Notes under the pieces: generated by a model
The model's input: only the letters and a program-made list of their open reading frames with translations
What the model was told of the DNA's origin: nothing
The model's database searches: none
Position numbers and translations under genes: made by a program
Part shown: piece after piece, positions 39,225-50,091 of the stretch
Numbering within the stretch: the stretch's first letter is position 1
Layout: every line of letters starts with the position of its first letter
Source: Lentzea tibetensis
GTDB lineage: Bacteria > Actinomycetota > Actinomycetes > Mycobacteriales > Pseudonocardiaceae
DNA length: 64,000 bases
Assembly (NCBI RefSeq): GCF_007845675.1
Contig: NZ_VOBR01000009.1
Span: 1 to 64,000 of the forward strand
Direction: 5' to 3'

Positions 39225-40148
39225 ATGGACCTGGTCGTCGGACTGGACGCGGGTGGCACGTCCACCAGGGCGTTGGTGCTGGATCTGGACGGCGCACGCC
39301 TGGGGGCGGGCATAGCGGGCGGAGCGAACCCGAACTCGCACCCGCCGGAGCAAGCGGCCGCCTGCGTGACCGAGGCCTTGCGCGAAGCGCTCGACGGCCT
39401 CGACTCCCGCAAGGTCCGCTCCGGCGTGCTGGGCATGGCCGGTGCGTCGAAACTGACCGCCGACCCCCAGGTGAGCGCTCTCTTCCGCGCCGCGTGGGAA
39501 GACGCGGGCCTGCAGTGCCCGATGCGCGTGATCACCGACTGCGAGGCCGCCTTCGCCACCGGCACCTCGTCCCCGGACGGCACAGTGCTGGTAGCAGGCA
39601 CCGGCGCCATCGGCGCCCGCATCACCGACCACCACATGACCCGCACCGCAGGCGGCTACGGCTGGCTGATCGGCGACGACGGCTCGGCGTTCTGGCTGGG
39701 CCGCGAAGCGGTACGCGCCACCCTGCGCCTCCTGGACGCCGACGCACCCCTAGAAGGCCTGGCCGCTGCCGTTCTGACCTCCGCAGGCGCCAAGTCCCGC
39801 GCCCAACTGATCACCGCCGTGAACTCCGCAGCACCCATCCTCATGGCCCGCTACGCCCCACTGGTGAGCGCCGCCCACCACCACGGCGACCCCGAGGCAC
39901 ACCGCATCGTGCACGAGGCGGCACACCTGCTGTCCGACACTGCGCTGGCCGTGCGCACGCCGGGCGAGGCCACCCCGATCGTGCTGGTGGGGAGCCTGAT
40001 CGTCACGCCGGTCGGTCTGTCCGTGAAGGAGGAGCTCCAGGCCCGCACCACGGCACCCGTGATCATGGCGACCGAGGGCGCGGCCGGGGCCGCTTGGCTG
40101 GCTGCCGTCGACGTGCTGGGGCCGACGGCACCTCGCCCCGCCGCCTGA
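39225..40148 (+). CDS. BadF/BadG-family sugar kinase, likely GlcNAc kinase
   Basis: A 307-residue ASKHA-fold kinase. Phosphate motifs are GLDAGGTSTRALVLD at the N-terminus, VAGTGAIGA, and GGYGWLIGDDGSAFWLG, which is the substrate loop of GlcNAc kinases. It would make GlcNAc-6-P for NagA, fitting the das locus 15 kb away. No Shine-Dalgarno sequence is seen; CATACT lies 7 bp before ATG, suggesting a leaderless message. It is a distant paralogue of the kinase at 47230. Confidence 0.82.
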   Translation: MDLVVGLDAGGTSTRALVLDLDGARLGAGIAGGANPNSHPPEQAAACVTEALREALDGLDSRKVRSGVLGMAGASKLTADPQVSALFRAAWEDAGLQCPMRVITDCEAAFATGTSSPDGTVLVAGTGAIGARITDHHMTRTAGGYGWLIGDDGSAFWLGREAVRATLRLLDADAPLEGLAAAVLTSAGAKSRAQLITAVNSAAPILMARYAPLVSAAHHHGDPEAHRIVHEAAHLLSDTALAVRTPGEATPIVLVGSLIVTPVGLSVKEELQARTTAPVIMATEGAAGAAWLAAVDVLGPTAPRPAA

Positions 40149-41511: not shown

Positions 41512-42729
41512 ATGCGTGCCGGAAGCCCACGACTGCTGCGGGAGATCAACGACCGCGCAGCCATCGAGGCTCTGCTGCGCAACGGTCCGCTGACCAGGTC
41601 GGAGCTGGAAGGTCTGATCGGCCTCTCCAAGCCGGCCACCGCTCAGCTGCTCACCCGGCTCGAGTCCGCCGACACCGTCGTCCGCAACGGACTGCGCGGC
41701 GGCGGACGTGGGCCGAGGGCGCAGCTGTGGTCGGTCAACGGCGCGCTGGCCCACGTGGCGGCCGTCGACCTGACCCCGGACGCCGTCGACGTCGCGATCG
41801 CGGACATCTCCGGCGCGGTGCTCACCGAGCACCGCGCGCCGATGCCGCGGGGCGGCAGCACCGAGGTGCTCGAGGCGTTCAGCACGGCCGTCGGGAAGGC
41901 CGCCGGACAGGCGGGCCTCACGCCGGAGAGCCTGCTCCACGTCGTGGTCGGCAGCCCCGGTGCGGTCAACCCGGCGACCGGTGAGCTGGCCTACGCACCG
42001 CACCTGCCCGGTTGGGGCGGGTTCGACCTGCCTGGCACGCTCACCGAGATGCTCGGCACGTCGGTCAGCGTGGAGAACGACGTCAACCTCGTCGCGCTCG
42101 AGGAGATGATCGCCGGCCGCGCGACCGAGGTGCGCAACTTCGTGGTCATCTGGCCCGCCGACCTGGTCGGTGCGGCAGTGGTGATCAACGGTTCGCTGCT
42201 GCGCGGCGCGACGGGAGGTGCGGGCGAGATCGACGGCCTGCAGATCCCGGACCGCGCGGCCGCGGAGACCGACACCGACCGGGCCGGTGGCACGTTCGGT
42301 GAACTGCTCAGCAACGTCTCGATCTGCAAGCTGGCCCGTGCGCACGGGCTCGCGGCCCGCAACGGTCACGGTGCGGTTCGCAAGGCGCTCACGGCAGGCC
42401 CTGCGGGCCGGGAGTTCCTCGTTGACCTCTCGCGGCGGATCGCCACCGGTGTGGCGAGCGTCGTCGCGGTGCTCGACCCCGAGCTGATCCTCCTGTCCGG
42501 CGAGATCGCGCAGGCAGGCGGGACGACGCTCAACGACCTGGTCGCAGCGGAGCTGCGGCAGCTGGTCGTGCCCCGGACACCCGTCCAACTCGCGCTGGTC
42601 ACCGGCAAGCCGGTCCGGTCGGGAGCGCTGCACTCGGCGCTCGCGGTCGCGCGAGAACAGGTTTTCGGTCTCCCTGCAGCCACCACTGAACCCTTTCGCG
42701 GCCGTGCGGTCGCCCCGTCCGCCCGTTGA
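41512..42729 (+). CDS. ROK family regulator
   Basis: A 405-residue NagC/XylR-type regulator. The N-terminal winged helix reads LTRSELEGLIGLSKPATAQLLTRLES, followed by an ASKHA sugar-binding domain. The usual ROK zinc motif CxCGxxGCxE is absent; the segment after GEIDGLQIP has no cysteines, so it may not phosphorylate or bind zinc. ATG with AGGAG 9 nt upstream. It starts the sugar operon and probably controls it. Two TAACAGAC copies (41418, 41492) lie in its leader. Confidence 0.88.
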   Translation: MRAGSPRLLREINDRAAIEALLRNGPLTRSELEGLIGLSKPATAQLLTRLESADTVVRNGLRGGGRGPRAQLWSVNGALAHVAAVDLTPDAVDVAIADISGAVLTEHRAPMPRGGSTEVLEAFSTAVGKAAGQAGLTPESLLHVVVGSPGAVNPATGELAYAPHLPGWGGFDLPGTLTEMLGTSVSVENDVNLVALEEMIAGRATEVRNFVVIWPADLVGAAVVINGSLLRGATGGAGEIDGLQIPDRAAAETDTDRAGGTFGELLSNVSICKLARAHGLAARNGHGAVRKALTAGPAGREFLVDLSRRIATGVASVVAVLDPELILLSGEIAQAGGTTLNDLVAAELRQLVVPRTPVQLALVTGKPVRSGALHSALAVAREQVFGLPAATTEPFRGRAVAPSAR

Positions 42730-42743
42730 TCGAAGGAGTGCAC

Positions 42744-44072
42744 ATGCGCAAGACGCTCTTGCTCAGTGTCGCCGCAGCGCTGTCCCTGACCGCATGTGCG
42801 GCGGGCGGCGGCGGCAACGCGAACTCCGGTGCCGCCGCGGCGCCCGGCAAGGACGACAAGATCACCCTCACGGTGTGGAGCAACTACTCCGACCGCGAGT
42901 ACGAAGAGGTCACCAAGGCCCTCAACTCGTTCAAGAAGAAGTACCCGAACATCGAGATCAAGCACGAGGGCTCGCAGGACGACGACAAGATCACCGCGGG
43001 CATCCGGAGCGGTAACCCGCCGGACGTCGCGATGTCGTTCACCACGGACAACATCGGCTCCTTCTGCTCGACGGGCGCGTTCCAGGAGCTGAAGCCGTAC
43101 ATCGACCGCGACAAGCCGGCGCTGGACCAGATCAACGAGGCCGTCCGGGGCTACACCGAGTACAAGGGCAACCGCTGCGCGCTGCCAATGCTCACGGACA
43201 TCTACGGCCTGTACTTCAACACCGACATGCTCAGCGCGGCCGGCCTGTCCAAGCCGCCGACGACCACGTCGGAACTGCTCGACTACGCGAAGAAGACGAC
43301 CAAGAAGGCCGCTGACGGCTCGATCGAGGTCGCGGGCTTCCTGCCGACGATGATGTTCTACAACAACCGTCCGCAGATCTGGGCCCCGTTCTTCGGCGCC
43401 GAGTGGGAGAACTCCAGCGGCAAGTCCGGCCTCTCGGGCAGCGAGGGCTGGACCGAGATGTTCAAGTTCCAGAAGGAGCTCGTGGACTTCTACGGCTACG
43501 ACGCGCTCGAGCGCTTCCGCGCCGGTCTCGGCCAGGAGTACTCCGCCGACCACGCGTTCCACCAGGGCAAGATCGCGATGATGATGGACGGCGAGTACCG
43601 CACCGCCTTCCTCAAGGCCCAGGCCCCGAACATCAAGTTCGGCACCGCGCCGTTCCCCGTGCTGGACTCGAAGAAGGCCGAGCTGCAGGGCGTCGGCTTC
43701 ACCACCGGCACGATCATGGGCATTCCCAAGGGCGCCAAGAACCCCGGCGCCGCGTGGGAGCTGATCAAGCACATGACGTTCGACAAGGAGACCATCGTCT
43801 CGCTGGCGAACGCCATCAAGAACGTGCCCAGCACCAAGGAGTCGCTGACCGACCCGGCTCTCGAGGTGGACGAGCAGTTCAAGACGTTCATCGACCTGGC
43901 CAAGAGCGGCAAGCTCAAGGGCAACCCGGTGACCCCGATCGGTGACGCGCACATCAAGGCCGTCGGCGACTTCGCGGCCGAGTGGCAGTCCGGGAAGGCG
44001 ACCGATCTCAAGGCCGGCTTCGAGAGCGTGGACAAGTCGATCGACGACCAGATCGCCAAGAGCGGCAAGTAG
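42744..44072 (+). CDS. Sugar ABC substrate-binding lipoprotein
   Basis: A 442-residue family 1 binding lipoprotein with lipobox LTAC (Cys18) and a Gly/Ala/Asn spacer. TLTVWSNYSDREYEEVTKALNSF opens the mature fold and GNPPDVAMSFTTDN follows. It starts 14 bp after the ROK gene with GAAGGAG upstream. A beta-glucoside or oligosaccharide ligand is inferred from the GH4 gene of the operon. Confidence 0.9.
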   Translation: MRKTLLLSVAAALSLTACAAGGGGNANSGAAAAPGKDDKITLTVWSNYSDREYEEVTKALNSFKKKYPNIEIKHEGSQDDDKITAGIRSGNPPDVAMSFTTDNIGSFCSTGAFQELKPYIDRDKPALDQINEAVRGYTEYKGNRCALPMLTDIYGLYFNTDMLSAAGLSKPPTTTSELLDYAKKTTKKAADGSIEVAGFLPTMMFYNNRPQIWAPFFGAEWENSSGKSGLSGSEGWTEMFKFQKELVDFYGYDALERFRAGLGQEYSADHAFHQGKIAMMMDGEYRTAFLKAQAPNIKFGTAPFPVLDSKKAELQGVGFTTGTIMGIPKGAKNPGAAWELIKHMTFDKETIVSLANAIKNVPSTKESLTDPALEVDEQFKTFIDLAKSGKLKGNPVTPIGDAHIKAVGDFAAEWQSGKATDLKAGFESVDKSIDDQIAKSGK

Positions 44073-44083
44073 AGGACGACGAG

Positions 44084-45076
44084 ATGACTGCCACGCTCGA
44101 ACGCGTGGACGTGCGAAGGGCCGCCCCTGCGAAGGGGCGGTCCCGAGCCCGCGCACGCAACCGCTTCACGGTGCTCGCGTTCATGGCGCCGGCACTCATC
44201 GGGTTCATCCTGTTCTTCGGGTACCCGCTGATCGCCACGGTGATCTTCTCGTTCACGAAGTACGACCTGATCAACCCGCCGGAGTTCGTCGGCCTCAAGA
44301 ACTACACGTTCATGTGGGGCGACAAGCTGTTCTGGCAGTCGATCCAGAACACGATGTGGTTCGTCGTGGTGCTCACCATCGCGCGGACGGTGTTCGCGCT
44401 CGGTGTCGCCTCGGTGATCGCGCGGCTGAAGTCGGGCGTCGGGCTCATCCGGACGCTCTGCTACCTGCCGTCGCTCGCCCCGCCGGTCGCGGCGACGCTG
44501 GTGTTCTTCATGGTGCTGCGCCCCAACGGCGGCCCGGTCGACGGTCTGCTGGACATGATCGGCGTGCAGAGCCCGCTGTGGTTCTCCGACCCGTCGTGGG
44601 CCAAGCCCGGTGTCACGGCGATCATGATGTGGGTCTGCGGCGACCTGATGATCATCATGCTGGCCGCGATCCTGGACGTTCCGCAGGACCAGTACGAAGC
44701 CGCTGAGATCGACGGCGCGGGCCCGATCCGCCGGTGGTGGCACATCACGCTGCCGACGATCTCGCCGGTGCTGCTGTTCGGCGTGGTGAACTCGGTGATC
44801 CTCGCGTTGCAGCTGTTCACGCAGGCCGTCGTCGCGGGTTCCGCGGCGACCGGATCGGCCGACCCGACCGGCAGCACGAAGAACCTCGGGTTCCCGCAGA
44901 ACTCGCTGCTGACCTTCCCGACCTTCCTGTACCAGACCGGTTTCCGCTACTTCGACATGGGATACGCCGCCGCGATGGCGACCGTCCTGTTCGTCATCTC
45001 GTTCGCGGTCACGATCGTGCTGGTCAACAAGATGCGCAAGAACTCGACCGCGGAAGAAGGGGGACCGGGCGCATGA
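44084..45076 (+). CDS. Sugar ABC permease (MalF type)
   Basis: A 330-residue permease with six predicted helices and the EAA loop YEAAEIDGAGPIRRWWHITLPTISP. ATG at 44084, 11 bp after the binding protein, and its stop overlaps the second permease by 4 bp. Confidence 0.9.
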   Translation: MTATLERVDVRRAAPAKGRSRARARNRFTVLAFMAPALIGFILFFGYPLIATVIFSFTKYDLINPPEFVGLKNYTFMWGDKLFWQSIQNTMWFVVVLTIARTVFALGVASVIARLKSGVGLIRTLCYLPSLAPPVAATLVFFMVLRPNGGPVDGLLDMIGVQSPLWFSDPSWAKPGVTAIMMWVCGDLMIIMLAAILDVPQDQYEAAEIDGAGPIRRWWHITLPTISPVLLFGVVNSVILALQLFTQAVVAGSAATGSADPTGSTKNLGFPQNSLLTFPTFLYQTGFRYFDMGYAAAMATVLFVISFAVTIVLVNKMRKNSTAEEGGPGA

Positions 45077-45960
45077 CCACCACGCTTCCGAACCCGGTTG
45101 TGGTCGCACGGGAAGAGCCGTACGTCAAGCCGCGCAACCCCAAGCAGATCCTCGAGTGGATCGGGGTGCACAGCATCGGGCTCGCACTGGGCCTGATCTT
45201 CGCGACGCCCGTGATCTTCGTGCTGCTGACCGCGGTCATGTCCGACGACCAGGCGTTCACCGCCGACCTGTGGCCGCGCGAGTGGCACTGGGAGAACTTC
45301 GTCGAGGTCTTCGAGAAGGCCCCGCTGCTGCGCTACCTGTTCAACAGCCTGCTGTACTCGCTGCTCGCGACGTTCGGCATGCTGCTCTCGTCGATCCCGG
45401 CGGCCTACGCGCTGGCGAAGCTGAAGTGGCGCGGGTCGAACGTGGCGTTCATGCTCGTCATCGGCGCCATGATGCTGCCGCCGCAGGTCGTCGCGGTCCC
45501 GCTGTACGACACGTGGTCGTCGCTCGGGCTCACCGGCACGCTGTGGCCGTTGATCGTGCCGTACTTCCTGTTCGACGCGTTCAGCATCTTCCTGTTGCGC
45601 CAGTTCATGCTCACGATCCCGCAGTCCTACGTGGACGCCGCGCGGGTCGACGGCTGCTCGGAGTTCCAGGCGCTGACGCGGATCATCGTGCCGATGGCCC
45701 GTCCCGGCATCGCGGCGACCGCGCTGTTCTGCTTCCTCTTCACCTGGAACGACTACTTCGGCCCGCTGCTCTACACCAGCGAGGTCAAGGACCAGTGGAC
45801 GTTGTCGCTGGCGCTGGCCTCGTTCAAGGGCATGCACTTCGTGCAGTGGAACTCGGCGATGGCCGTGACCCTGCTGGCGATGCTCCCAGCCGTCGTGTTG
45901 TTCATCTTCGCGCAGCGCTCGTTCGTCAAGGGAATCACGTTCACAGGAGTCAAGGGATGA
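45073..45960 (+). CDS. Sugar ABC permease (MalG type)
   Basis: A 295-residue permease, partner of the preceding gene. EAA loop: DAARVDGCSEFQALTRIIVPMARPG. ATG at 45073 and a stop overlapping the GH4 gene. Like dasABC, this importer has no ATPase gene beside it, so a shared MsiK-type ATPase is expected. Confidence 0.9.
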   Translation: MTTTLPNPVVVAREEPYVKPRNPKQILEWIGVHSIGLALGLIFATPVIFVLLTAVMSDDQAFTADLWPREWHWENFVEVFEKAPLLRYLFNSLLYSLLATFGMLLSSIPAAYALAKLKWRGSNVAFMLVIGAMMLPPQVVAVPLYDTWSSLGLTGTLWPLIVPYFLFDAFSIFLLRQFMLTIPQSYVDAARVDGCSEFQALTRIIVPMARPGIAATALFCFLFTWNDYFGPLLYTSEVKDQWTLSLALASFKGMHFVQWNSAMAVTLLAMLPAVVLFIFAQRSFVKGITFTGVKG

Positions 45961-47225
45961 AACTCACCGTCGTCGGTGGCGGGTCCACCTACACGCCCGA
46001 GCTGATCGACGGCATCGCGGGCCGTCGCACCAGCCTCGCGGTGGACGAGATCGTCCTCGTGGATCCCGACGAGCACCGCCTGTCGATCATCGGACCGTTC
46101 TGCCAGCGCCTGCTCTCGCACGCCGGTCATCCGGCGAAGATCCGCACCACCACGTCGCTCGAACAGGGCGTCGAGGGTGCCTCCGCGGTGCTGCTGCAGC
46201 TGCGCGTCGGTGGTCAGCAGGCTCGCGCGTCGGACGAGACGTTCCCGCTGACCTGCGGCTGCGTCGGCCAGGAGACCACCGGTGCCGGTGGTCTCGCGAA
46301 GGCGCTGCGCACCGTGCCCGTGGTGCTGGACATCGCGGACAAGGTGCGCGCGCTGGCCGGTGAGAACACCTGGATCGTCAACTTCACCAACCCGGTCGGC
46401 ATCGTCACCCGCGCCCTGCTCGAGGCGGGCCACCGCGCGGTCGGCCTGTGCAACGTGGCGATCACGTTCCAGCGCTGGACCTCCGGCCTGCTGGGCGTCG
46501 AGCCGGACTCGGTGGTGCTCGACCACGTCGGCCTGAACCACCTGTCGTGGGAACGGGGCGTGCTCGTCGACGGCGTCGACCGCCTGCCGGAGCTGCTGGC
46601 GCAGCACTCGGAGGGCCTGGCCGAGCACATCGGCATCGACGGCTCGCTGATGCAGCGCCTCGGCATGGTGCCGTCTTACTACCTGAACTACTTCTACAAC
46701 CACGACGCGGTCGTGAAGAAGCAGCAGACCGAGGTCCCGCGCGCCGAGGTCGTCGCGGCGGTGGAGAAGGACCTGCTGGACATCTACAGCGACCCCAAGG
46801 TCGTCACGAAGCCGGAGCAGCTCTCCCAGCGCGGCGGCGCGTACTACTCGGAGGCGGCGGTGCAGCTGGTGCACGCCCTCACCGGTGGTGCGGGCGCCGA
46901 ACGGCACGTGGTGAACGTGCGCAACGGCGGCACGCTGCCGTTCCTGCCGGACGACGCGGTGATCGAGGTCCCGGCCACGGTCACGGCGTCCGGCGCGGTG
47001 GCACTGCCGCAGCGCCCGGTGGAGCCGTCCATCTCCGGACTGATCTCGCACGTGACGAGCTACGAGTACCTGGCGCTGGAAGCGGCGATCCACGGTGGCC
47101 GGGACCGCGTTGCCAACGCGCTGCTCGCACACCCGCTGATCGGCCAGCACGCCATCGCAGACCAGCTGGCCGACGAGCTGATCGCGCAGAACCGCGATCT
47201 GCTGCCGTGGGTGAAGGGAGCTTGA
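45957..47225 (+). CDS. GH4 6-phospho-beta-glucosidase-like enzyme
   Basis: A 422-residue family 4 glycosidase, NAD+- and metal-dependent. The Rossmann motif VVGGGSTYTPELIDGI opens the protein; CGCVGQETTGAGGLAKALR, the metal cysteine in GLCNVAITF, and LNHLSW with the metal His follow. The usual proline after CNV is Ala. GH4 enzymes of this group act on 6-phosphorylated beta-glucosides. Since the importer is ABC type, phosphorylation must come from the kinase next door rather than from a PTS. Confidence 0.9.
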   Translation: MKLTVVGGGSTYTPELIDGIAGRRTSLAVDEIVLVDPDEHRLSIIGPFCQRLLSHAGHPAKIRTTTSLEQGVEGASAVLLQLRVGGQQARASDETFPLTCGCVGQETTGAGGLAKALRTVPVVLDIADKVRALAGENTWIVNFTNPVGIVTRALLEAGHRAVGLCNVAITFQRWTSGLLGVEPDSVVLDHVGLNHLSWERGVLVDGVDRLPELLAQHSEGLAEHIGIDGSLMQRLGMVPSYYLNYFYNHDAVVKKQQTEVPRAEVVAAVEKDLLDIYSDPKVVTKPEQLSQRGGAYYSEAAVQLVHALTGGAGAERHVVNVRNGGTLPFLPDDAVIEVPATVTASGAVALPQRPVEPSISGLISHVTSYEYLALEAAIHGGRDRVANALLAHPLIGQHAIADQLADELIAQNRDLLPWVKGA

Positions 47226-47229
47226 TTCA

Positions 47230-48249
47230 ATGACGGACCGGGTGCTCGCGATCGACGGCGGGAACAGCAAGACAGCCGTGCTGCTGGTCGACTCCGACGG
47301 CAAGGTGCTCGCGCAGGTGCGCGGACCAGGCGCCTCGCCTCAGGTCGTCGGCCTGCAGAAGGGCCTTGACGTGTTCGAGGGTTTGGCACGTGAGGCCGCG
47401 GCGCTGGCTGGGCTCTCCCCCGACGAGCCGATCGCCCGGCACACCGCGGCGTACCTCGCAGGCGCCGACCTGCCGCGCGAGGAAGAGGACCTGACGCAGG
47501 CGATCTCCGAGCGCGGCTGGTCGACCAGCACGTTCGTCGGCAACGACACGTTCGCCCTGCTGCGCGCGGGCACCACGAACGGCATCGGTGTCGCGGTCGT
47601 CTGCGGCGCGGGCATCAACGCCGTCGGTGTCGCCCGCGACGGCCGCACGCACCGCTTCCCCGCGCTGGGCCAGATCTCGGGCGACTGGGGCGGCGGCGGT
47701 CACCTCGGCAGCGAGGCGCTGTGGCTGGCCGTGCGCGCGGAGGACGGCCGCGGCAAGCCGACCGAGCTGCTGCCCGCGCTGATCGAGCACTACGGCGTCA
47801 CGTCGATCGCGCAGGCCGTGGAGAAGCTGCACTTCGAGGAGATCGAGTTCGACCCGCACGCCCTGTGCCCGTTGCTCTTCGACGTGGCCGCGCGCGGGGA
47901 CGAGGTCGCGCAGGCGGTCGTCGACCGGCTGATCGAGGAGATCACGTTGCTCTCCACGGTGTCGTTGCAGCGCCTCGACCTGGCCGACGAGGCCGTGGAC
48001 GTGGTGCTCGGCGGCGGCGTCATGACGGGCACCGGCGAGACCGTGCTCGGCGAGGTCCGGCGACGGGTGCTCGAAGTGGCTCCGCTGGCCCAGGTCCGGG
48101 TCGTCGACCTGCCGCCCGTGGTCGGCGCCGCTCTGCTGGGCCTCGACACCATCGGTGCTTCTCCGGCCGCGGAGCTGCGCCTGCGTTCTGCTTACGACGA
48201 GCGGGTTCCACCTGCCAGCAGCGGAATCGGTATCGCTGCGGGTTCATAA
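47230..48249 (+). CDS. BadF/BadG-family sugar kinase
   Basis: A 339-residue ASKHA kinase of the GlcNAc-kinase/BadF class. Motifs are LAIDGGNSKTAVLLVD (phosphate 1), VCGAGINAVG and GDWGGGGHLGSEALWLA, and VLGGGVMTGTG (adenosine). It starts 4 bp after the GH4 gene. It probably phosphorylates the imported sugar or disaccharide before or after GH4 cleavage. Its stop TAA is the start of the repeat region that follows. Confidence 0.85.
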   Translation: MTDRVLAIDGGNSKTAVLLVDSDGKVLAQVRGPGASPQVVGLQKGLDVFEGLAREAAALAGLSPDEPIARHTAAYLAGADLPREEEDLTQAISERGWSTSTFVGNDTFALLRAGTTNGIGVAVVCGAGINAVGVARDGRTHRFPALGQISGDWGGGGHLGSEALWLAVRAEDGRGKPTELLPALIEHYGVTSIAQAVEKLHFEEIEFDPHALCPLLFDVAARGDEVAQAVVDRLIEEITLLSTVSLQRLDLADEAVDVVLGGGVMTGTGETVLGEVRRRVLEVAPLAQVRVVDLPPVVGAALLGLDTIGASPAAELRLRSAYDERVPPASSGIGIAAGS

Positions 48250-48345
48250 CTCCACACAGACCCCGTTGGCAAAGGCGTCGAACACAGCGGTAGATCGGCG
48301 GCGGCGCCCCGGCCAACAAACCACAACTCCACACAGACCCCGTTG
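48248..48345. repeat. 21-bp direct repeat and degenerate first hairpin unit
   Basis: The 21-bp segments 48248-48268 and 48325-48345 are identical (core CTCCACACAGACCCCGTTG) and 77 bp apart. Between them the loop TAGATCGGCGGCGGCG occurs at 48291-48306, followed by CCCCGGCCAAC, but the left arm is not complementary beyond GTTGGC (48265-48270). This looks like a broken or variant unit of the array that follows. Confidence 0.8.
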
Positions 48346-48535
48346 CGAGGGGTAGATCGGCGGCGGCGCCCCTCGCAACGGTCCCAACCCCACTATCCGG
48401 AGTTGATCGGCGGCGGCGCTCCGGATAGTGGTTCCAACCCCGCTACCAGGGGTAGATCGGCGGCGGCGCCCCTGGTAGCGGTCCCAACCCCGTCACGGGG
48501 GGAACTGATCGGCGGCGGCGTTCCCCCTGTGACGG
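48340..48535 (+). repeat. Array of four covarying-stem hairpins, 50-bp period
   Basis: Hairpin stems start at 48340, 48390, 48440 and 48490. Arms pair as 48340-48352 with 48369-48381, 48390-48402 with 48419-48431, 48440-48452 with 48469-48481 (13 bp each, perfect), and 48490-48504 with 48521-48535 (15 bp, one G.T pair at 48497/48528). Arm sequences differ between hairpins, but the 16-nt loop ends in GATCGGCGGCGGCG in all four. Units are joined by TCCCAACC or a close variant (TTCCAACC). No gene spans it on convincing grounds. Function unknown; a structured 3' RNA of the sugar operon is one reading. Confidence 0.95.
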
Positions 48536-48543
48536 TCCCAACG

Positions 48544-48586
48544 CCCCCGGAACGGCATCACGCGCCGATGTCGCTCCGGGGGTTTT
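48544..48586 (+). terminator. Terminator after the hairpin array
   Basis: CCCCCGGA (48544-48551) pairs with TCCGGGGG (48575-48582), followed by TTTT. It would end the plus-strand sugar operon after the hairpin array. It overlaps the last codons of the minus-strand gene. Confidence 0.75.
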
Positions 48587-49046
48587 CGCTTGCCGAAGAA
48601 GGAATGTCCGCGCTGGGGGCGCTGGTGCTCAACGTCGGCAGCGTCGGCAGCGGGACGGCCGTCGTCCGCGCGACGCTGACCTCGGGCGTCGCCTCCGGCG
48701 TCACGACGGGCTTCGACCTGGGGGGCGCGCTGGTCGTCACCGCGGACGGGCGCGGCCGCGAAGAGCTCGATGACGGCGCGTTGTACTCCATGGGAGGATC
48801 GTCGCCACCTATGTTCGTGATCGCGGGTTCGGCCGCGGGCTCACGGACGTCCTCGACCGGCGAAGGCCCCGGACCGGTGCCGAGCACCACCCCGACGACG
48901 AGTCCGAGCAGCAGTAGAACAGCGCCGATGGACGTCATGGGCAGCGGCAGACCGGGTCGCACGGCGGGCACGCTACTGGCGGTATGAGACGAAAAACCCG
49001 ATTCTCCGGACTGTATCGCTAGATCGAGTGGTAATTCGTTCGTCAC
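48558..49046 (-). CDS. Hypothetical single-pass membrane protein
   Basis: A 162-residue protein with one hydrophobic segment (about 37-57, MTSIGAVLLLLGLVVGVVLG) and a long Pro/Ser/Thr-rich tail likely outside the cell. No family recognised. GTG at 49046 has no clear Shine-Dalgarno sequence. The divergent gap to the SGNH gene contains CACCTAC and GTAGGTG as widely spaced inverted copies (49044 and 49087). Confidence 0.6.
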   Translation of the reverse strand: MTNELPLDLAIQSGESGFSSHTASSVPAVRPGLPLPMTSIGAVLLLLGLVVGVVLGTGPGPSPVEDVREPAAEPAITNIGGDDPPMEYNAPSSSSSRPRPSAVTTSAPPRSKPVVTPEATPEVSVARTTAVPLPTLPTLSTSAPSADIPSSASENPRSDIGA

Positions 49047-49140
49047 CTACAGCGACGAAACCTACGATGCCGTAACCGACGGTGGCGTAGGTGGCACGTG
49101 GACATGCATGCTGTCTAGCCGTTGGAGGAGGGGGACTGCT

Positions 49141-49944
49141 GTGCTGCGCTGGAGAAGCCTGGTTGCTGTCGGTGACAGCTTCACGGAGGGGATGGACGAC
49201 CCCGGACCCGGCGACACGTTCGTCGGCTGGGCCGATCGGCTCGCGACGCTGCTCGCGGCCGAGGCGCCGGACTTCCGGTACGCGAACCTCGCGATCCGGG
49301 GCAAGATGCTGCCGGAGATCATCGAGCAGCAGGTGCCGCTGGCGGCGTCGCTCAAACCGGATCTCGTGACGTTCTGCGGCGGCGGCAACGACATCATGGT
49401 CCCGAACAGCGACCCGGACGCTCTCGCCGAGCAGTACGAGGTGGCGGTCGCGGACCTGCGCGCGGCCGGGTGCGACGTGGTGATCTTCACCGGGTTCGAC
49501 ACCAGGAGCACGCCGCTGCTGAGGTCGTTGCGCGGCAAGGTCGCGATCTACAACTCGCACCTGTGGTCGATCTCCGAGCGGTACCACTGCCACATGGTCG
49601 ACCTGTGGTCCATGCACGTGCTGCAGGACCGCCGCGCGTGGAGCGAGGACCGGCTGCACCTCTCGCCGGAAGGCCATCGGCGGGTCGCGCTGCGGGTGGC
49701 GAAGGCGTTGGGGCTCGCCAACGACGGGGAGTGGAACGCGCCGTGGCCCGCCGCCGAGGAGGCGGAGTGGATGACGCAGCGCCGCCAGGACCTCAGGTGG
49801 GCGCGCGAGCACGTGGTGCCGTGGATCGGCAGGCTGCTGCGCGGTGAGTCGATGGGCGACGGTCTCGCGCCGAAGCGCCCCGAGCTGCTGCCCATCGCGC
49901 GGATGCCGGAGGACGACCGGAGCCTGACGAAGGAGAAGGGCTGA
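49141..49944 (+). CDS. SGNH/GDSL family hydrolase
   Basis: A 267-residue esterase/lipase-like enzyme. Blocks are GDSFTEGMDD (Ser, block I), Gly in ANLAIRGKM (II), GGGNDIM (Asn, III) and DRLHLSPEGH with the Asp/His pair (V). There is no signal peptide, so it acts inside the cell. GTG at 49141 follows GGAGGAGGGGG. Substrate unknown; the C-terminal extension (about 60 residues) is found in actinobacterial members. Confidence 0.9.
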   Translation: MLRWRSLVAVGDSFTEGMDDPGPGDTFVGWADRLATLLAAEAPDFRYANLAIRGKMLPEIIEQQVPLAASLKPDLVTFCGGGNDIMVPNSDPDALAEQYEVAVADLRAAGCDVVIFTGFDTRSTPLLRSLRGKVAIYNSHLWSISERYHCHMVDLWSMHVLQDRRAWSEDRLHLSPEGHRRVALRVAKALGLANDGEWNAPWPAAEEAEWMTQRRQDLRWAREHVVPWIGRLLRGESMGDGLAPKRPELLPIARMPEDDRSLTKEKG

Positions 49945-49977
49945 CCGGCACTCTCCCCCGAATGCCGGTCAGCCCTT
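49938..49977. terminator. Terminator between SGNH and AfsR-like genes
   Basis: GGGCTGACCGGCA (49938-49950) pairs perfectly with TGCCGGTCAGCCC (49963-49975). It begins within the SGNH stop region and separates it from the convergent regulator. Confidence 0.85.
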
Positions 49978-50091
49978 CCGTTCGGTGGCCTACCCCCTCG
50001 TTCCCCCTTCAGCCACCAGGACACCGATCACCAGGTGATCCGTGCCCAGCACCAACCTGCCACGATCTGACGCGACCTCACTAAACACCGG

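Follow-up and report, generated by a model that had tools for sequence, protein, structure and literature searches.

Tandem hairpins with a conserved loop core and covarying stems: a candidate structured RNA element behind a sugar operon of Lentzea tibetensis

Behind what appears to be a sugar operon of the soil bacterium Lentzea tibetensis, four tandem hairpins carry one common loop, GATCGGCGGCGGCG, on stems that are unlike each other but self-complementary, and the question raised by this locus is which molecule, DNA or RNA, is maintained in that form and what it might do. The hairpins occupy positions 48340-48535 on the plus strand of the window, i.e., the whole stretch of 64,000 nucleotides that was analyzed (contig NZ_VOBR01000009.1, positions 1 to 64,000). 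Hairpins 1 (48340-48381), 2 (48390-48431) and 3 (48440-48481) possess 13-bp stems, i.e., CCGTTGCGAGGGG/CCCCTCGCAACGG (arms 48340-48352/48369-48381, loop 48353-48368), CCACTATCCGGAG/CTCCGGATAGTGG (48390-48402/48419-48431, loop 48403-48418) and CCGCTACCAGGGG/CCCCTGGTAGCGG (48440-48452/48469-48481, loop 48453-48468), respectively. Their 13-nt arms are 100% complementary, and all three were recovered by direct reading, folding, repeat finding and R1, a covariance model built from the four window units, with hairpin 1 also being matched by model R2. Hairpin 4 (48490-48535; arms 48490-48504/48521-48535, loop 48505-48520), recovered by direct reading, folding and R1, has a stem of 15 pairs, the sole imperfect one being a G/T (G-U) pair at 48497/48528. 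All four loops are 16 nt long and end in GATCGGCGGCGGCG, the loop-to-loop spacing is 50, 50 and 52, and the units are followed by the linker TCCCAACC (48382-48389 and again 48482-48489) or its variants TTCCAACC (48432-48439) and TCCCAAC (48536-48542). An earlier note on this DNA had reported four hairpins at these positions; direct reading and repeat finding confirmed them, and its description of the constant loop end, the near-constant linkers and the single imperfect pair proved accurate as well.

The four-hairpin observation is correct and goes beyond chance. Among the window copies, 8 of 13 pairs are changed on both sides, which none of 500 shuffles equalled, and 100% of the cells pair as opposed to 83% in shuffles, while further pair types are not unusual in number (81 of 500 shuffles reach the count). 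Furthermore, the sense strand reaches a folding energy of -131.6 kcal/mol, shuffled sequences averaging -106.1 (z -5.06; none of 200 shuffles as good), compared with a z of -1.36 for the antisense strand, for which 17 of 200 shuffles were as good. Two features had been overlooked, namely a degenerate fifth unit upstream of the array and a terminator-like hairpin with a conserved loop (48543-48583) downstream. The former, designated unit 0 (approximately 48263-48317, plus strand; repeat families D1, D2 and D5), retains the GATCGGCGGCGGCG loop at 48293-48306, while its stem is largely lost; short GTTGGC/GCCAAC arms are discernible by eye, and R1 returns a marginal match (E 0.008). The leader of unit 0 is duplicated ahead of hairpin 1 (48245-48268 and 48322-48345, 96% identical).

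Gene order suggests that five plus-strand genes form one sugar operon, of which the ROK-family regulator gene (41512-42729, with a weak helix-turn-helix match) is probably the first. It is followed by genes for an extracellular solute-binding protein (42726-44072), a MalF/UgpA-like ABC sugar permease (43982-45076, NCBIfam matches below cut-offs), an open reading frame containing a glycoside hydrolase family 4 (GH4) gene (45156-47225, domains from residue 269 onward) and a BadF/NagK-like sugar kinase (47230-48249). The kinase matches Pfam BcrAD_BadFG (6e-23) and the MurNAc/GlcNAc kinase structure PDB 8zo3 (7e-15), with NCBIfam NagK_SO3507 below its cut-off; it is the last gene of the operon, and the hairpin element begins past its stop codon. 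The next gene on the same strand, encoding a GDSL lipase (at 49108), lies beyond the terminator-like hairpin. A second BadF-type ATPase gene (39225-40148) lies ahead of the ROK regulator gene.

The array is not peculiar to the window. Both R1 and R2 match it in 23 of 25 Lentzea genomes, R1 doing so at one common locus with best E-values per genome of 6e-21 to 3e-10. Over 298 genomes of the family, R1 returned matches in 37 genomes from five genera, of which four remain after removal of a coding-like match located away from the kinase gene in G055 (genus g32). The kinase was found in 129 of these 298 genomes, and its 3' flank was inspected in 110 of the 129. Hairpins with a GGCGGCGG loop were present behind it in 23 of 25 Lentzea, 14 of 21 g37, all three g38 and three of six g35 genomes, one of the g35 misses being masked by N just past the start of such a hairpin. 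The three non-Lentzea genera carry one to three such hairpins at the equivalent spot. The 55 kinase loci inspected in other genera yielded a single 9-bp match, which was taken for coding sequence at the end of the gene, and in several other genera of the family this position is occupied by hairpins whose loops are unrelated. Among kinase-bearing genomes, the GGCGGCGG hairpin was not detected in two Lentzea (G011 and G014) and seven of 21 g37 genomes, so the element is dispensable. In G011, a long inverted repeat, CCGGAAACGCGGGG...CCCCGCGTTTCCGG, lies behind the kinase gene (L212, approximately 2540-2600) in place of the array.

Within genomes, R2 at E 0.1 returned one locus each, save for a single marginal match in G004, with 150 first-look candidates scored per genome in these copy searches; a REP-like dispersed repeat was rejected on account of this single locus. 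Two marginal R1 matches off the main locus were seen in G012 (C3:134817-134869 and C34:13253-13305, 26.6 bits each, E 0.01). The occurrence of one locus per genome at these thresholds, in the same gene context across genera and with no integrase among the examined genes, speaks against the recombination cassette that the earlier note had considered. A CRISPR-like or integron attC identity was likewise rejected, as it is the loops that are constant and the self-complementary parts that vary; the genes examined included neither cas nor integrase. Over a wider taxonomic range, R1 was run on 397 order and 296 class genomes, where 22 distinct genomes outside Lentzea and g37 showed weak matches. Fifteen of these were inspected by eye over 220 bases each, which revealed one tandem pair (in G858), a coding-like IGGG stretch shared by five f33 genomes, and no tandem array in the remainder. 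R2 matched four of 348 order genomes, all of them Lentzea or g37. Strict filters, passing 14 to 18 first-look candidates per genome, applied to these order and class searches, so that absence elsewhere is not proven. An exact two-loop pattern occurred in at least 117 stretches of a genome collection, 11 of which bear clustered hairpins; the six of these with names among the matches listed are all Lentzea, and the plasmid collection held no match to the element. All taxon samples were partial and model E-values are rough.

The spread of the element across genera permits its fold to be examined by covariation. A loop-anchored alignment of 46 hairpins was chosen from 64 distinct stems (G009 being left out of the 64); 86.7% of its cells pair, as compared to 62.0% in shuffles, even with a few rows shifted by one column (e.g., g35), which lowers the paired fraction. 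Changes on both sides affect 192 cells, compared with 67.8 in shuffles, at a covariation score of 0.556 (shuffled 0.183), and for each of these three measures none of 500 shuffles reached the observed value. Little weight attaches to the plain tally of pairs changed on both sides (15 of 18), the shuffle mean being 12.3, with 12 of 500 shuffles reaching 15 and a one-column slide also giving 15. An alignment of 67 distinct, model-fitted R1 matches shows two-sided changes at 13 of 13 pairs, with 99.8% of cells paired and a score of 0.674 versus 0.184. This alignment is biased towards the structure and, having been collected at E 0.5, includes some matches that probably reflect chance or coding sequence, as well as an antisense match to the array itself.

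A comparison of the window with its sister species G024, based on three hairpins with an intact counterpart, points the same way: 12 of 42 pairs differ, of which 11 are changed on both sides, one is changed on one side to G-U and none is broken. The third codon positions of the kinase gene are 71% identical between the two, and the stem pairs change at roughly the rate of these positions, but jointly. It had been proposed that such a pattern demands either strong selection for the fold or a copying process that rewrites one arm from the other. The first of these is supported by the covariation, the sister-species pairs and the G-U excess described below; the second is not needed, yet may contribute, since 11 of the 12 changed pairs are double changes. 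In its extreme form this second idea holds that the hairpins are DNA palindromes upheld by arm-to-arm template switching, with no RNA function. Double changes do far exceed single ones between the sister species, G-C to C-G swaps included, but the G-U excess on one strand, the constant loop core and the near-invariant stem of hairpin 1 call for selection on the sense strand, and this account is considered extremely improbable.

Selection on a DNA palindrome would render G-T and A-C imperfections equally frequent. A stem-finding rule that penalizes the two equally recovered 101 hairpins in 43 genomes, but overlooked a weak relative in G235 and a middle hairpin of G299. The distinct imperfect pairs on the sense strand comprise 33 G-U and 6 A-C (p 1.4e-5 under equal penalties), or 29 and 6 when stem ends are disregarded (p 1e-4); one G009 stem had been dropped and one G012 stem trimmed beforehand, and, as genus and stem type served as a crude basis for grouping the events, some inherited pairs are counted twice and the counts fall short of full independence. 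Deamination of cytosine on the non-template strand might add some G-U pairs, though hardly a fivefold excess. Given this excess, the selected molecule is most likely the sense strand, i.e., the operon mRNA. As far as sequence comparison can establish, the array is therefore a structured RNA element with a conserved loop core under sense-strand selection, found in this sampling at one locus behind the same gene in four genera of one family, which bears out the earlier suggestion that a structured RNA with a special loop terminates the sugar operon.

Conservation is unevenly distributed over this element. In the 46-row alignment, seven of the eight letters of GGCGGCGG are invariant and the eighth is conserved in at least 90% of rows; this core occupies the 3' side of a loop whose 5' side varies in length and sequence, and G251, which lies outside the 46 rows, carries GGCGGCAG. 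The loops of relatives are mostly 11-18 nt long and their stems mostly 12-18 bp. In the main Lentzea clade (21 genomes), arm identity is 99.3% for hairpin 1, approximately 87% for hairpin 2 and approximately 80% for hairpin 3, while the whole loops are 89%, 81% and 80% identical and the linkers show mean identities of 0.80, 0.61 and 0.58. For comparison, the three codon registers, read as lowest, middle and highest, show 68%, 89% and 93% identity, and the value for the 100 bases downstream is 40%. As whole loops are no more conserved than arms in this clade, it is the GGCGGCGG core alone that argues for recognition. To judge from these identities, part of the stem sequence is also constrained, at least in the main Lentzea clade, and stem turnover falls mostly between clades and in the lineage of the window, where units have also been gained and have decayed. 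The earlier picture of ever-changing stems thus stands in part: covariation is clear between the main clade, the clade of the window and three other genera, but the near-identity of the hairpin 1 arms in 21 Lentzea genomes is partly the conservation of the same stems that had been named in advance as evidence against it.

The comparable conservation of loops and stems in the main clade would also be expected of a passive tandem barrier, in which the hairpins halt 3'-5' exonucleases or aid termination and the loop is kept for folding. The position of the array directly past the stop codon at the operon end, its very stable stems and the terminator-like hairpin that comes next are all compatible with such a barrier, as is a small three-pair helix that RNAalifold places within the loop, making a folded loop possible. 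Terminators lacking a U-tract, termed I-shaped, have been proposed in mycobacteria. The array hairpins are followed by TCCCAAC or TTCCAAC rather than a U-tract, unlike intrinsic terminators, and a terminator consensus scan, blind to loops of more than 8 nt, found neither them nor the hairpin at 48543-48583. A barrier would not be expected to keep the GGCGGCGG core over four genera while the stems differ, and the hairpins with unrelated loops in other genera of the family also weigh against it; this explanation is regarded as unlikely.

The terminator-like hairpin itself (48543-48586 with its trailing TTTT, plus strand; loop ACGCGCC at 48560-48566) is present in 22 of the 23 array-bearing Lentzea genomes, of which 20 have the exact loop ACGCGCC and two have ACACGCC or ATGTGCC. 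Six of the 14 array-bearing g37 genomes possess a terminal hairpin with the loop ATGCGCCC or AAGCGCCC on differing stems, seven do not have the terminal loop, and in G306 the loop letters are kept and the stem is not. Of note, this loop is largely kept while its stem differs; conservation would not be anticipated in the loop of an ordinary terminator. It is conceivable that GGCG in the array loops forms a kissing contact with CGCC in the conserved GCGCC loop of the terminal hairpin to create a folded 3' end, in keeping with the frequent co-occurrence of the two loops and with a predicted duplex of -13.2 kcal/mol between the two loop regions. That duplex, however, uses bases paired in the hairpin stem, and the array loop pairs about equally well with a second copy of itself (-12.6). 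Furthermore, three g35 and three g38 genomes, as well as the seven g37 genomes, lack the terminal loop yet keep that of the array, so kissing cannot be the whole function, and as an explanation of the array it is deemed quite improbable.

The same terminal hairpin could alternatively mark the end of a stable small RNA, comprising array and terminator, that is cut from the 3' UTR and whose G-rich loops pair with C-rich, CCGCCGCC-like stretches of other mRNAs. Identical exposed loops in tandem, unpaired C-rich linkers and a terminator-like hairpin at the end in nearly all array-bearing Lentzea genomes resemble multi-seed small RNAs. Against this, four exact loop-complementary words of 9-10 letters are absent from the sense strand of the operon, their single match (49748) lying outside it; the 6C RNA encoded in this genome has loops made of C runs, by eye a poor complement to GGCGGCGG; and a scan for sigma-70-like promoters found none at 47900-48900. 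A small RNA of this kind is accordingly viewed as unlikely.

The explanation preferred here, albeit tentatively, is a cis-acting 3'-UTR RNA element of the sugar-uptake operon mRNA, whose loops dock a trans-acting factor and thereby set the fate of the mRNA 3' end; the array probably serves as a control signal, hitherto undescribed, at this mRNA end. The sense strand folds into a row of hairpins, each showing GGCGGCGG on the 3' side of its loop, and the repeated loop would be the docking site, most likely for an RNA-binding protein. Several such bindings may provide avidity, and loop occupancy would then govern trimming or protection of the mRNA 3' end, and hence how long the kinase and GH4 message lasts. 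The need for several sites is weakened by the fact that hairpin number drops to one in some genomes, and conservation of a loop can equally reflect a role in folding or in base-pairing to a second RNA.

The 3' UTR of the transferrin receptor mRNA contains several hairpins, the iron-responsive elements, with one CAGUGN loop and a bulged C, at which protein docking sets mRNA decay. They share with the array a 3'-UTR location, one conserved loop and differing stems; they differ in being eukaryotic and without sequence relation to it. A bolder, and doubtful, extension of the preferred cis-acting element would make it the bacterial counterpart of such an array, read by a sugar-metabolism protein, perhaps the upstream kinase, with the stems kept perfect jointly by selection and arm-to-arm template switching; paired changes would then accumulate at nearly the neutral rate, with no broken intermediates. 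CsrB and RsmZ, stand-alone sponge RNAs, also present rows of hairpins with a common loop motif (GGA) on differing stems, whereas the motif of the array is GGCGGCGG and lies behind an operon; a CsrA target was rejected since the GATCGGCGGCGGCG loop has no GGA. Guanidine-II (mini-ykkC) riboswitches likewise consist of tandem small hairpins with conserved loops and variable stems, but their identical loops are ACGR and they reside in 5' leaders. REP/BIME sequences are extragenic hairpins, as is the array, and are able to stabilize upstream mRNA; they occur in many dispersed copies with conserved stems, as opposed to one locus and a conserved loop core. Not many conserved-loop elements are known from bacteria at such a position, past the final gene of an operon.

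The RNA targets of ANTAR proteins are described as protein-bound pairs of stem-loops with hexanucleotide loops, in which A1 and G4 are conserved; they are predicted in approximately three quarters of sequenced actinobacteria and are described as located ahead of, at the beginning of or within the gene they regulate (PMC8164766). They resemble the array in their tandem stem-loops, conserved loop letters and linker, but the array has one to four hairpins with larger GGCGGCGG loops and stands behind the last operon gene. Its loops of 16 nt in the window, and mostly 11-18 nt in relatives, are not the hexaloops described there, and this identity was rejected. A search of Rfam 15 with positions 47000-50000 of the window, at E up to 5, returned three matches, none above its gathering threshold; the only one at the array, a twister-P1 ribozyme, scored 23.9 bits against a gathering score of 67.2 and was dismissed. 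The earlier remark that no named element of this kind was known to its author is in line with the lack of a fitting Rfam family, and no description of the hairpin element was found in a search of the open-licence literature. A protein-coding repeat was excluded by loop spacings of 47-56 nt in the main clade, which cover all three residues modulo 3, and a stop-codon readthrough signal was set aside because distance and frame to the hairpins vary.

The locus represents a well-supported RNA structure that was read from raw sequence and has no Rfam match. Its four natural copies, with one loop on different stems, provide a compact experimental handle, and the sister species, differing at 12 of 42 pairs with none broken, offer a natural test case for paired stem substitution.

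Two minor observations concern related arrangements. In another actinobacterial family, the G858 pair (G858:C1:553710-553766, L198) consists of tandem hairpins with a different shared loop, CGAAACGCGCCGCG, and differing stems, located between unrelated genes; an exact 13-letter search of 120 genomes of that family found no other close double copy among the matches listed. Within Lentzea, the decayed units of the window (48263-48317) and of G024 (L002, approximately 1500-1550 and 1690-1745) have in common an insert ending in ACAGCGG before the loop, which suggests either a second unit type or a common product of decay.
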